Shown here piece by piece: positions 1 through 4,541 of a DNA stretch of 64,000 nucleotides. Source of the stretch: Candidatus Polarisedimenticolia bacterium (GTDB taxonomy: Bacteria; Acidobacteriota; Polarisedimenticolia; Gp22-AA2); the NCBI GenBank assembly GCA_036001465.1, contig DASYUH010000086.1, positions 1 to 64,000 on the forward strand, written 5' to 3'. Under the pieces are notes generated by a model that was not told the origin of the DNA, made no database searches, and saw only the letters and a program-made list of their open reading frames with translations. Position numbers and translations under genes: made by a program. The stretch's first letter is position 1. Each line of letters opens with the position of its first letter.

Positions 1-497
1 TCGCCCTCGACGCCGCGGCGCGCATCCTGGAGCGGCACCACGTGCGGGTCGCGCTCCTCGATTTCGGCGGCCAGGTGCTGGCCATGGGACGGCCGCGGGG
101 CTCCGCGGGCTGGCCGGTCGGCATCGCCGACCCGCTCGATCGCGACGTCCCGGTCGCGGTCATTTCCGGTTCGGACGTCTCGATCTCCACGTCCGGCAAC
201 GGGGAGCGTTCGGCCGCCGGTCCGGAGGGGCCGATCGGTCACATTCTGGATCCCGTGTCGAAGAGGTCGGCGGCCTTCCAGGGATCTGTGACCGTGGTGG
301 CGGTGGACGGCACGTCGGCCGACGCCCTCTCGACGGCGCTGTTCGTGATGGGACCGGACGAAGGGCCCCGCTGGGCGGACGGGCGTCGCATCGCGGCCTT
401 GTACCTCTGGCGCGATCCGGACGGGTCGCTCGGCCGGAGAGCGACACGCGCGTTCGACGAGAGCTTTCCCGGATGGTCCGGGTCGATCGAGCACTGA
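1..497 (+). CDS. apbE: FAD:protein FMN transferase (ApbE family), C-terminal part
   Basis: The window opens inside this gene; the frame is open from base 3 and about 164 C-terminal residues remain. ApbE enzymes act outside the cytoplasmic membrane and attach FMN from FAD to a threonine of target proteins. Family marks visible are LLDFGG, the SISTSGNGER stretch, HILDP and the metal-site region DALSTALFVMG near the end. After HILDP the usual T-G is replaced by V-S-K. The porin gene starts 65 bases further on, and a likely substrate, an FMN-binding protein with an SGAT motif, lies two genes downstream, so enzyme and substrate are neighbours. The N-terminus and any signal peptide lie outside the window. 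Confidence 0.93.
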   Translation, partial: ALDAAARILERHHVRVALLDFGGQVLAMGRPRGSAGWPVGIADPLDRDVPVAVISGSDVSISTSGNGERSAAGPEGPIGHILDPVSKRSAAFQGSVTVVAVDGTSADALSTALFVMGPDEGPRWADGRRIAALYLWRDPDGSLGRRATRAFDESFPGWSGSIEH

Positions 498-562
498 ACC
501 CCCATGGGGCCCGGCCGACGGCACGGACGGCGGCCCTTGACCGGAAGAACAAAGGAGCGATC

Positions 563-2026
563 GTGACCACGACAGTCGACACTCGAACGCGAACCACCCC
601 TCGACGTCCCCTCGGCCGTTTCATCCTGGCCGCCCTCGTCGCGCTTTCGGCTGCGGCCGCCCTGGGCTCCCGTCAGGTCCTGGCGGCCGCCGCGGCCGAG
701 AGCGCTTCCGAGACGAAAGGGGTCGAAGCCCGCCTGGCGGAGCTCGAGGCGCTGGTGGCGACGCTGCGCGCGGAGATCCAGGTCCTGCGCGATTCCATGG
801 CGGGTGCGGCGCCGGCCGGATCGCCGGCGACCCTGGCGGAGATGCAGAAGCGCATGGACGCGCTGGCGCAGGAGATCGAGCGCCTGCGCATCGGCGAGGC
901 GGCGGCGCCCGCGGCCGGAACGACGATCGCCGGCTTCGGGCCCGCGGCCGCGAAGGTCTACGGGATACGGCGCGGCGTGTCGATCGGCGGGTATGGCGAG
1001 ATGCTCTACCAGAACTTCGATCCGCGAGCCGACGACGGAACGCAATCCGGAGAAACCGACACCGCCGACCTGCTGCGCGCCGTCTTCTATTTCGGCTACA
1101 AGTTTTCCGATCATCTGCTGTTCAACTCGGAGATCGAGTTCGAGCACGCCGTGGCGGGCGACGGCGCACCGGGCGAGGCGGCCGTGGAGTTCGCCTACCT
1201 CGACTACCGTCCCCGGCGGGCCTTCGGGCTGCGGGGCGGACTGCTCCTCGTGCCCATGGGATTCATCACCGAGCTGCACGAGCCCCCCATCTTCCTCGGC
1301 GCGCGCCGTCCGGAGGTCGAGCGCGTGATCCTCCCGTCGACCTGGCGCGAGAACGGGTTCGGGGTGTATGGGGACGCGGGGCCGTTCTCCTACCGCGCCT
1401 ATCTGATCGCCAGCCTGAACGCTTCGGGGTTCACCCCCGACGAGGGGATCCGCGAGGGGCGGCAGGAGGGGGCCGAGTCGCTGGCGCGGGATACGGCGCT
1501 CGTCGTTCGAGGGGACTTCACGCCTGTGCCGGGGCTGCTGCTCGGCACATCGGCCTTCGCCGGGGACACGGGCCAGGGGGACGCGTCCATCGGCGGCGCC
1601 CGCCTGACCCTGTGGGACGCCCACGCGGAGTGGCGGACGCACGGCGTTCAGGTGCGGGGCGTCTGCGCGCGCGGACACCTCGAGGACGCCGGGGCGGTCA
1701 GCCTGTCGATCGATCCCTCGGGACTGACGGCCATAGGCAGTCGCTCGCGGGGATGGTACGGTGAGGTGGCCTGGAACGTCCTGTCCCTCCTGGGCAAGGG
1801 AGACCGCGATCTGAGTCCGTTCGTGCGGTACGAGGCGCTGGACACGCAGGCGTCCGTGGCGACCGGCTTCGCGCGGGACCCGGTGAACGACCGGACCATC
1901 ACGACGTACGGCGTCACCTGGAAGCCGATTCCGAACGTGGCGATCAAGGTCGATTTCCAGGATGCAGCCAACCGTGCCGGGACGGCGGTGGACCAGTGGA
2001 ACCTCGCGCTGGGATATCTCTTCTGA
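563..2026 (+). CDS. outer-membrane porin with N-terminal coiled coil
   Basis: I start it at the GTG at 563 because AAAGGAG sits at 551-557, five bases before; an upstream GTG in frame at 473 lies inside apbE and lacks such a site. The 487-residue product begins with basic residues and a hydrophobic signal segment (about residues 19-41), then a heptad-patterned helix (about 47-110), then a long stretch of alternating amphipathic strands ending in ALGYLF, a terminal aromatic typical of barrels inserted by BamA. This matches the build of phosphate-selective or trimeric porins with a coiled-coil stalk. The solute is unknown. Its last base overlaps the start of the FMN-binding protein, so it is probably made together with it. 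Confidence 0.82.
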   Translation: MTTTVDTRTRTTPRRPLGRFILAALVALSAAAALGSRQVLAAAAAESASETKGVEARLAELEALVATLRAEIQVLRDSMAGAAPAGSPATLAEMQKRMDALAQEIERLRIGEAAAPAAGTTIAGFGPAAAKVYGIRRGVSIGGYGEMLYQNFDPRADDGTQSGETDTADLLRAVFYFGYKFSDHLLFNSEIEFEHAVAGDGAPGEAAVEFAYLDYRPRRAFGLRGGLLLVPMGFITELHEPPIFLGARRPEVERVILPSTWRENGFGVYGDAGPFSYRAYLIASLNASGFTPDEGIREGRQEGAESLARDTALVVRGDFTPVPGLLLGTSAFAGDTGQGDASIGGARLTLWDAHAEWRTHGVQVRGVCARGHLEDAGAVSLSIDPSGLTAIGSRSRGWYGEVAWNVLSLLGKGDRDLSPFVRYEALDTQASVATGFARDPVNDRTITTYGVTWKPIPNVAIKVDFQDAANRAGTAVDQWNLALGYLF

Positions 2027-2595
2027 TGCGGAACCTCGCGGTGTGCGCCCTCCTTCTTGGTCTGGTGGCAGGCCAGGCCGAGGCCCGCGTCTACCTGACC
2101 GTGCCGAAGGCGCTGGACGCCGCCTTTCCTCCGCCGGCCAGGGTGGAGCGCCGGACCCTCTACCTGGACGAGGCACAGACCAAGCGCGCCGCGGAAGCGG
2201 CCGGGGCCCCGGTCGAAAGCCGCGTCCTGCCGTACTACGTGGGCAGCCGCGACGGCCGCGTCACCGGGTACGCCTACTTCGACACGCACCTGGTGCGGAC
2301 CCTCCCGGAGACCATCCTGATCCTCGTGGCGCCGGATGGGAAGGTGGCGCGTATCGACGTCGTGTCGTTCGACGAACCCGAGGACTACCTGCCGTCGAGT
2401 CGCTGGCTGCAGCAGTTCCCCGGCAGGCGGCTGGAGGACCTCGGAGTCCGCCAGGGGATCCGCGCCCTGAGCGGAGCGACCCTCTCGTCGCGCGCCGTCA
2501 CCCAGGCGGTCCGGCGGGTCCTGGCCCTGCACCGCCTGTTCGTGGCGCCGGGCGCCGCCACGGCGGACGGCGTCTCGGGCGAGACGCCACGGTGA
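2026..2595 (+). CDS. secreted FMN-binding domain protein
   Basis: A 189-residue protein with a signal peptide (about residues 1-20, ending AGQAEA) and an FMN_bind domain of the RnfG/NqrC type at the C-terminus. The sequence SGATLSS at residues 149-155 is the flavinylation motif, and Thr152 is the residue expected to carry covalent FMN added by ApbE. The start ATG overlaps the porin stop by one base (TGATG), and the end overlaps the next gene as GTGA. The predicted role is a periplasmic one-electron carrier receiving or giving electrons at the membrane partner encoded next. Domain and motif are clear; the redox partner is inferred from position. Confidence 0.85.
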   Translation: MRNLAVCALLLGLVAGQAEARVYLTVPKALDAAFPPPARVERRTLYLDEAQTKRAAEAAGAPVESRVLPYYVGSRDGRVTGYAYFDTHLVRTLPETILILVAPDGKVARIDVVSFDEPEDYLPSSRWLQQFPGRRLEDLGVRQGIRALSGATLSSRAVTQAVRRVLALHRLFVAPGAATADGVSGETPR

Positions 2596-3080
2596 GCCCG
2601 TTCGAGCGCACGCTCCTCCACGCCTCGACCTGGCTCGTGGCCTTGAGCGGAAGCGTCTACTTCTTCATGAAGTACGTGATGACCGGGGGCGATCCGTACA
2701 GCGTCATCCACCATCCCCTCCAGCCGCATGCGCTCTCGCTGCACGTCCTGTCGGCCCCGATCCTGGTCTTCTCCCTGGGCCTGATCGCGCGCGATCACAT
2801 CCTCGGCTACCTCCTCGAATCGCGCCAGCGCCGCGGGCGTGCCACGGGGATTCTCGCCGTGTCCCTGGCGGCCCCGATGATCGTCTCCGGCTACCTGATG
2901 CAGGTCTTGACCGATCCGGTCCCGCGCCGGATCCTGTCCATCATCCATCTGGCGGGTGGAGCCCTCTACGTCGTGCTGTTCGTGGGTCACCTCGTCGCCT
3001 CCCGGAACGGGCGACGGGGAGCCAACGGCAGCGGTGCGGGACGTCCGCGGAACCGGCGGCTCGTCCGGGCGCTGCCTTGA
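2592..3080 (+). CDS. His-rich four-helix membrane protein, DUF4405/cytochrome-b-like
   Basis: The 162-residue product starts at GTG 2592, overlapping the preceding stop by four bases. Four hydrophobic segments lie at about residues 9-30, 47-70, 85-106 and 114-137. Histidines sit in or near these helices (10, 46, 51, 69, 119, 133), as expected for a membrane b-type cytochrome binding haem through paired histidines. I recognise the general DUF4405/ferric-reductase-like form but no exact family. Following a porin and an ApbE-modified flavoprotein, it is the natural membrane electron donor or acceptor of the unit. The C-terminal tail is basic and low-complexity. Confidence 0.72.
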   Translation: MSPFERTLLHASTWLVALSGSVYFFMKYVMTGGDPYSVIHHPLQPHALSLHVLSAPILVFSLGLIARDHILGYLLESRQRRGRATGILAVSLAAPMIVSGYLMQVLTDPVPRRILSIIHLAGGALYVVLFVGHLVASRNGRRGANGSGAGRPRNRRLVRALP

Positions 3081-3104
3081 TTGTCCGGGAGGACGGGGTA
3101 TAGG
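3077..3104 (+). promoter_or_regulatory. candidate sigma70 promoter for the TPR gene
   Basis: TTGATT at 3077-3082 and TATAGG at 3099-3104 are 16 bases apart, each with four of six consensus bases. The site straddles the stop of the preceding gene, about 58 bases before the next start, so the TPR gene may have its own transcript. Confidence 0.38.
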
Positions 3105-3161
3105 ATCGTACTCCCGGCTTCAGGCGACGGGCCGGCCGGCCGGACCCCTGGAGGGCGAACC

Positions 3162-4541
3162 ATGAGATCGACGAAACGAACGCTTCTGATGCTGGCTCTC
3201 GGACTGGCTCTGGCGTCGGCCGCCGCGCCGCTCGACCCGGCGCACGCAGAGGCGATCACCCGGGTGCGCGGGACCATCAAGGACGTGAACGGCAAGCCGA
3301 TGCCCAAGATCAAGGTCTTCTTCGAGGCCGCCGACATCAAGAGGAAGATCGGCCCCGTCACAACGAACAAGGAGGGGGTGTACGTCATCGCCACTCTCGA
3401 CATCTCGGTGGCGAAGAAATGGCGTGTCATCCCCGATCTGCCCGGGTACAAGACGGTCAAGATCCACTACGAGATCTTCGATTCCGAGAAACAGGAGCGG
3501 GGAAGCGGTGACAACATCCCGGGATCCAAGCAGGAGTACCCGGAACTCTCGTTCGCGCTCGTCGGGGACCTGGGCCGGAACCTCGTCGATTTCGTGGTCG
3601 CCAAGGACTCGGAGTTCCTGGCGGCCGTCCAGGCGGAGAAGAAGGCGAGAGAGGCGGCCGCTTCGGGCGGCGCGGTCGCGGCCCCCGCGGGGACGACGTC
3701 CGCGGACCCCGCGGTGGCGGGGAGCGCGCCCGGCGCGGCCGCTGCACCCGGGGCGCCGGCCGGTCCGGCGGTCTCGGGCGAGTCGCTGACCAAGGCGAAG
3801 CAGCTCGCCGACGCGGGCCGGCACCCGGAGGCCATCGAGCTCTACAAGGCCTTCCTGACGAAGGACCCGACCGGGAATCCCGCCGTCTACTACTATCTCG
3901 GCAAGAGCCTGTTCGAGACCAAGGACGACCAGGCGGCGGAGCAGGCATTCCGCAAGGCGAGCGAGCTGAAGCCCGACATGAAGTACGCGCACTTCTTCCT
4001 CGGAAACATTCATCTCCGGGGCGACCGTTTCGTGGAAGCGGCCGCCGAGTATGAGAAGGAGACCACCCTGGCCCCCGACAACGACCGGGTGTGGTTCCAG
4101 CTGGGGCAGGCTCTGGCGCGGGCGGGGCAGGACGACAAGGCCCTCGAGGCGCTGGAAAAAGCCAGCGCCATCGATCCCTCGAAATCCGACGCCTACATGG
4201 AGATGGCCGCGATCTACGAGAAGAAGAAGGACCGCGCGAAGGCGGACGAGGCCTACCAGAAAGTCATCGCGCTCGATCCGAAGAACGCCGCGTCCTCCTT
4301 CTTCAACATCGGCGTGCATGCCTGGAACGAGAACCACGACCGCGAGGCGGCCCAGGCGTTCCGGAAGGCGATCGAAGTCGATCCCTCCTACGCGGCGGCC
4401 CATCGCGAGCTGGCGCGCACCCTCACCCGGATGCAGGACTTCGACGGCGCCGTCAAGCACTACGAGCAGTACCTGAAGCTCAGCCCCGGAGCCCCCGACG
4501 CCAAGGAAATCAAGGAGATGATCGTCGCGCTGAAGGGGTGA
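3162..4541 (+). CDS. secreted TPR protein with N-terminal carboxypeptidase-regulatory-like domain
   Basis: The start at ATG 3162 follows TGGAGGG at 3149-3155. The 459-residue protein has a signal peptide (residues 1-30, cut near AHA-EA), then a beta-sandwich of about 100 residues beginning VRGTIKDVNGKPMPKIKV, the pattern of carboxypeptidase-regulatory-like/transthyretin-fold domains. A Lys/Glu helix and a 50-residue Ala-Gly-Pro linker follow. The rest is at least six tetratricopeptide repeats (about residues 208-455) with regular A-Y-P spacing. Such proteins are periplasmic scaffolds; no enzyme site is visible. It converges on gmhA. Function is unassigned. Confidence 0.85.
   Translation: MRSTKRTLLMLALGLALASAAAPLDPAHAEAITRVRGTIKDVNGKPMPKIKVFFEAADIKRKIGPVTTNKEGVYVIATLDISVAKKWRVIPDLPGYKTVKIHYEIFDSEKQERGSGDNIPGSKQEYPELSFALVGDLGRNLVDFVVAKDSEFLAAVQAEKKAREAAASGGAVAAPAGTTSADPAVAGSAPGAAAAPGAPAGPAVSGESLTKAKQLADAGRHPEAIELYKAFLTKDPTGNPAVYYYLGKSLFETKDDQAAEQAFRKASELKPDMKYAHFFLGNIHLRGDRFVEAAAEYEKETTLAPDNDRVWFQLGQALARAGQDDKALEALEKASAIDPSKSDAYMEMAAIYEKKKDRAKADEAYQKVIALDPKNAASSFFNIGVHAWNENHDREAAQAFRKAIEVDPSYAAAHRELARTLTRMQDFDGAVKHYEQYLKLSPGAPDAKEIKEMIVALKG

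Follow-up and report, generated by a model that had tools for sequence, protein, structure and literature searches.

A conserved unit of porin, flavoprotein and putative cytochrome, apparently under Fur control and proposed to act in iron acquisition, in an uncultured Acidobacteriota lineage

Several electron-transfer systems that depend on flavinylation have been described (MsrQ-like, PepSY-like and DUF4405; PMC8238504, PMC11334425), in which apbE is clustered with genes for a secreted flavinylated protein and a histidine-containing membrane cytochrome. Links are known from flavinylation both to iron assimilation, P19/FTR1 clusters included (PMC8238504), and to small membrane cytochromes (PMC11334425), and several of these systems are tied to iron reduction or assimilation. 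On the outer-membrane side, E. coli OmpC and OmpF carry Fe2+, with FeoB (PMC7315122), and Fur-boxed hypothetical porins with weak similarity to PF07396 (psp of Geobacter and Desulfuromonas) have been proposed to serve ferrous iron in delta-proteobacteria, in a paper that makes no mention of apbE (PMC545781).

The locus described here shares with the known flavinylation systems the clustering of apbE, secreted flavoprotein and putative cytochrome, as well as the proposed tie to iron. It differs from them in that its membrane protein cannot be assigned with confidence to DUF4405, PepSY or MsrQ, and in having a dedicated outer-membrane porin as a constant partner; the word porin is absent from the main text of PMC8238504 and PMC11334425. 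As in P19/FTR1 iron assimilation (PMC8238504), an FMN-binding protein occurs together with an FTR1 permease. Here, however, the FTR1–FtrD gene forms a separate operon that has only a regulatory box in common with the unit, a porin is present, and no P19 gene was noted at the unit's loci. Because no paper found in the open-access literature describes a unit that combines a porin with a covalent-flavin protein and a cytochrome, we count this combination as new; flavinylation-linked iron assimilation, flavinylation-linked cytochromes and Fur-boxed porins are already known.

Four adjacent genes and their products

The window, a stretch of 64,000 nucleotides from the 4.58-Mb genome of a soil bacterium in 114 contigs, starts at base 1 of its contig (C86). 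A sequence-only reading had placed four adjacent genes at its left end, for ApbE, a porin, an FMN-binding protein and a membrane protein, and had taken the last three to be translationally coupled. All four genes lie where that reading put them, in the order apbE, porin, FMN-binding protein and membrane protein, and the coupling is borne out by the junctions: the porin and FMN genes overlap by 1 nt (TGATG) and the FMN and membrane protein genes by 4 nt (GTGA), the latter overlap being kept in 59 of the 63 pairs scored in relatives. An Rfam search of the window gave no match. The gene that adjoins the unit on its downstream side (3081–4541, likely start ATG 3163) encodes a TPR protein with a carboxypeptidase-regulatory-like N-terminus; it was considered as a further member and rejected, as it is recognizable in nearer relatives only.

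The first gene (3–497, plus strand) encodes the C-terminal part of ApbE, the FAD:protein FMN transferase (PF02424, E = 5e-29), its 5' end being missing because the contig begins at the first base of the window. The third (2026–2595, plus strand) encodes a periplasmic, RnfG-like FMN-binding protein with a signal peptide (PF04205, 2.3e-7). Each of these proteins is present in a single copy in the genome. Direct translation confirms the previously noted SGAT flavinylation motif at residues 149–152 (2470–2481, plus strand), of which Thr152 is the predicted site of covalent FMN attachment. G150 and A151 are invariant among 30 relatives, and the family profile matches the solved RnfG structure 9eri_G (E = 2.4e-9) with the SGAT region aligned. 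RnfG has the same FMN_bind domain and a matching motif, but it is a subunit of the Rnf complex, whereas the protein of this unit is a free secreted one. The locus thus holds both marks of an ApbE-flavinylated FMN_bind system, namely ApbE and an FMN_bind protein with [S/T]GA[S/T]. At two loci in relatives (L082:10361–11059 and L098:6643–7326), a gene of the RibD_C type (riboflavin-synthesis reductase) overlaps the cytochrome gene at its end, which may tie the supply of flavin to the unit.

The fourth gene (2592–3080, plus strand) encodes a four-helix membrane protein (AlphaFold2 pLDDT 89) that we predict to be a di-heme cytochrome b of b561/DUF4405-like type. Its invariant histidines fall on helix 2 (H51, H69) and helix 4 (H119, H133), H41 is near-invariant, and by the positive-inside rule H51 and H119 would face the periplasm. 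A small helical bundle with conserved candidate heme-ligand histidines is expected of DUF4405/b561-like flavinylation cytochromes, and it is found here. Among 28 relatives, 12 match Ni_hydr_CYTB (prokaryotic cytochrome b561; best 6.9e-7, mostly weak) and four match DUF4405 (PF14358; best 0.041, below the gathering score); the window protein itself gave no match to PF14358. Foldseek searches with the model returned HyaC and cytochrome b6f without significance, and a search of solved structures by sequence found nothing. The prediction that this protein binds heme is drawn from the histidine pattern and the weak profile matches.

The second gene (563–2026, plus strand; GTG start after AAAGGAG) encodes the porin. 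Consistent with its earlier description as a coiled-coil porin, the AlphaFold2 model (pLDDT 86.8) shows a signal and coiled-coil N-terminus of two helices followed by a 16-strand beta barrel, and the protein ends in Phe. Foldseek aligned the model with OmpU, OmpC, OprP and OprO (E about 1e-12 to 1e-11); coiled coils were the sole matches when solved structures were searched by sequence. No porin family in Pfam matched the window protein above the cut-off, PF07396 (Porin_O_P) included, and weak matches to that family were seen in 6 of 30 members of the porin family (best 1.5e-5). The phosphate porins OprP and OprO resemble it in the 16-strand barrel and in weak family similarity, but they differ from it in genetic context.

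Conservation of the unit and the affiliation of its porin

Of 60 related genomes, 34 encode the FMN protein, and a search of the phylum with the porin profile identified 106 of 297 genomes. The sequence-only reading had suggested looking for the same gene order elsewhere. At nearly all relative loci that were fetched, the order porin–FMN–membrane protein is retained, often with apbE in front; this recurrence throughout the relatives indicates that the arrangement is not due to chance. We also ran the porin profile, on its own, against 84,980 species genomes; this gave at least 565 relatives, of which the best 80 were kept. These loci span Acidobacteria, Gemmatimonadetes, Elusimicrobia, Nitrospiria and Proteobacteria, and also include Bdellovibrionaceae, Caldithrix, Bacteroidia and Schekmanbacteria. 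An FMN-binding gene lies beside the porin in all 80 of these best matches, and in 77 the porin overlaps the FMN frame or lies within 150 nt of it. The same four-helix membrane protein is encoded at 64 of the 80 loci and apbE at 58, sometimes after the unit; several of the missing apbE and membrane protein genes are accounted for by contig ends.

In 13 of the 80 loci, the cytochrome's slot in the operon is occupied by an unrelated small membrane protein (L126:4509–5021, L127:1964–2476, L069:9796–10305 and ten further loci) with invariant histidines H73, H75 and H88 and no Pfam family. No homology between the two types of membrane protein was detected (hhalign probability 0.1), and the replacement is possibly a new cytochrome family. 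At another locus (L200, contig 2 of genome G133), two tandem porins in one operon both match the flavin-linked profile.

A finding that the porin is a general phosphate porin, occurring in relatives without the flavin genes, had been named as one that would count against the earlier reading. Porins without flavin genes do exist: among the lower-scoring members that were fetched, 19 loci (L173, L175–L188, L191, L192, L204 and L205) have no flavin gene nearby, and their porins share most of the conserved Glu and His residues. In a quick maximum-likelihood tree, however, all 85 FMN-linked porins fall on one side of a branch with SH-aLRT support of 99, so that the flavin-free porins form a separate sister branch rather than orthologs. 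Four divergent porins that adjoin FMN genes lie outside the FMN-linked clade. Taken together, the tree and the flavin-free sister loci indicate that the porin superfamily is broader, but that its FMN-linked clade goes with the flavin unit. The covalent-flavin electron-transfer unit proposed earlier is thus supported, with a cytochrome-b-like partner and with the porin belonging to it. We had considered the conserved Glu and His residues of the barrel as a metal site specific to the FMN-linked clade and rejected this, since most are common to the sister porins; H354 is the only His/Glu position largely specific to the clade.

Iron genes and a Fur-box-like palindrome

A gene of the Fur family often lies ahead of the unit. 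Among 96 upstream neighbor genes, the commonest families are FeoB_N and FUR (eight each), with Fe_dep_repr_C (four) and FeoA (three) also recurring. Four loci (L065, L070, L110 and L122) have the order fur, a small feoA-like gene, feoB, apbE, porin, FMN, cytochrome, and in Caldithrix (L127) the unit comes before a DtxR-like gene, feoA and feoB. FeoB is also encoded at L068, L069 and L124, ferritin at L129 and a ZIP protein at L126. By a rough estimate, FeoB would be within reach by chance at about 0.2 loci out of 80.

In relatives, a Fur-box-like palindrome, TTGAGA-N5-TCTCAA, lies upstream of the unit. Matches of at least 10/12 were seen in 44 of 101 promoters and in 22 of 5178 control windows. 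A Fisher test on this contrast is only indicative, as some genomes contribute twice, related sequences are included and the consensus was chosen after the promoters had been viewed. Stronger evidence for regulation comes from the restriction of sites and from a scan of near genomes. The 80 loci (1.12 Mb) contain 30 palindromes that score 11/12 or better, every one of them upstream of the unit or of its linked fur gene, and upstream of the 19 sister porins a single palindrome reaches 10. In eight near genomes, the family version of the box occurs in 13 places, seven at the operon of the unit and four ahead of a Fur gene that has an FTR1 permease gene behind it, the window's own genome being among these four; reversed-pattern controls gave none. 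About half of the promoters have no good box within 250 nt, and some of these have one before the linked fur gene. The palindrome is thus found at the promoter, as for members of a Fur regulon, both in relatives and in genomes of the same genus. Since the window's own promoter lies beyond the contig end, its box is inferred from the same-genus genomes. These patterns suggest that the unit is under Fur control and apparently repressed by iron.

The window's own genome carries the family box, with one mismatch, upstream of fur and FTR1/FtrD. In this region (L226:1777–6160, contig C46), the genes behind the box are fur, a fusion of FTR1 with an FtrD-like domain, and two permease genes of FtsX/MacB type; the fur and FTR1/FtrD assignments were confirmed with Pfam. 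The Fur protein is closest to solved Fur proteins and also matches Zur and PerR structures. FTR1 is present once, family searches show Nramp and ZIP to be absent, and no recognizable FeoB is found among the matches to PF02421 (FeoB_N), which we tentatively read, from frame length and tandem matches, as other GTPases of Der/MnmE type. Given the common box and this inventory of iron genes, the flavin unit and FTR1 are likely partners.

A proposed route for iron and the alternatives

We think it probable that the unit is a Fur-controlled assimilatory ferric reductase with its own pore. Under iron limitation, Fur would leave the promoter and the unit would be expressed. The 16-strand porin would admit Fe2+ or small Fe3+ complexes across the outer membrane independently of TonB. 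ApbE would couple FMN to Thr152 of the secreted protein, to which the four-helix di-heme cytochrome would hand electrons, probably from quinol, and in the periplasm the flavoprotein would then reduce Fe(III) or maintain iron in the Fe(II) state. Import across the inner membrane would fall to a permease, FTR1 in this genome and FeoB in many relatives. What we computed is which genes are present and in what order, their conservation together, the SGAT motif, the arrangement of helices and histidines, the palindrome, and the links to Fur, Feo and FTR1; from these we infer the covalent flavin, the heme, the direction of electron flow, the porin substrate and the binding of Fur.

A bolder version, which we regard as rather unlikely, has the flavoprotein docked on the porin of its unit and reducing iron at the pore or inside it, with the conserved Glu and His residues of the barrel as an iron-binding lining; this would provide TonB-independent uptake in many phyla. 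Were it true, reduction would drive selective uptake of iron across the outer membrane; the usual view is that unchelated iron enters there through general porins.

Electrons might instead flow the other way, from Fe(II) oxidation or the FtrD domain through flavoprotein and cytochrome to quinone, with FTR1 importing Fe(III). Yeast FTR1 is paired with a ferroxidase, FTR1 of P19/FtrD systems likewise acts together with iron oxidation, and in the genome analyzed here FTR1 is joined to an FtrD-like domain while no recognizable FeoB is found. In many relatives, however, the unit is paired with FeoB, a ferrous transporter, and we judge the reverse direction unlikely.

The sequence-only reading had proposed that electrons or a small redox substrate cross the outer membrane through the porin. 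Other bacteria do use flavinylated proteins for extracellular electron transfer (PMC8238504), and the linkage between porin and flavin gene is obligate. Yet the model is an ordinary 16-strand barrel, no multiheme cytochrome is found among the 25 most frequent neighbor families, and the promoter and neighbors are typical of iron uptake. That proposal is therefore not supported, and passage of electrons or of a shuttle appears distinctly improbable.

The boxes and sequences of the Fur family overlap, and the regulator matches Zur and PerR structures as well, so it could be PerR, Zur or Mur, with the unit serving peroxide defense, zinc or manganese. We consider this very unlikely: its best matches are Fur proteins, the neighboring FeoA/FeoB, FTR1 and ferritin genes are iron genes, and the box is close to those of delta-proteobacterial and E. 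coli Fur (PMC545781). That a general phosphate-type porin is a chance neighbor of flavin genes, as the weak Porin_O_P similarity, the OprP/OprO fold matches and the flavin-free sister porins might suggest, is scarcely credible given a single FMN-linked clade, linkage at 80 of 80 loci (77 overlapping or within 150 nt) and the near absence of the palindrome upstream of the sister porins.

The reading as a Fur-controlled ferric reductase and pore gives a testable function to an uncharacterized flavinylation system found in hundreds of genomes. If it is correct, a dedicated iron pore, encoded alongside a periplasmic reductase and apparently controlled by Fur, would provide a siderophore-free route to iron for uncultured Acidobacteria, Gemmatimonadota and others.
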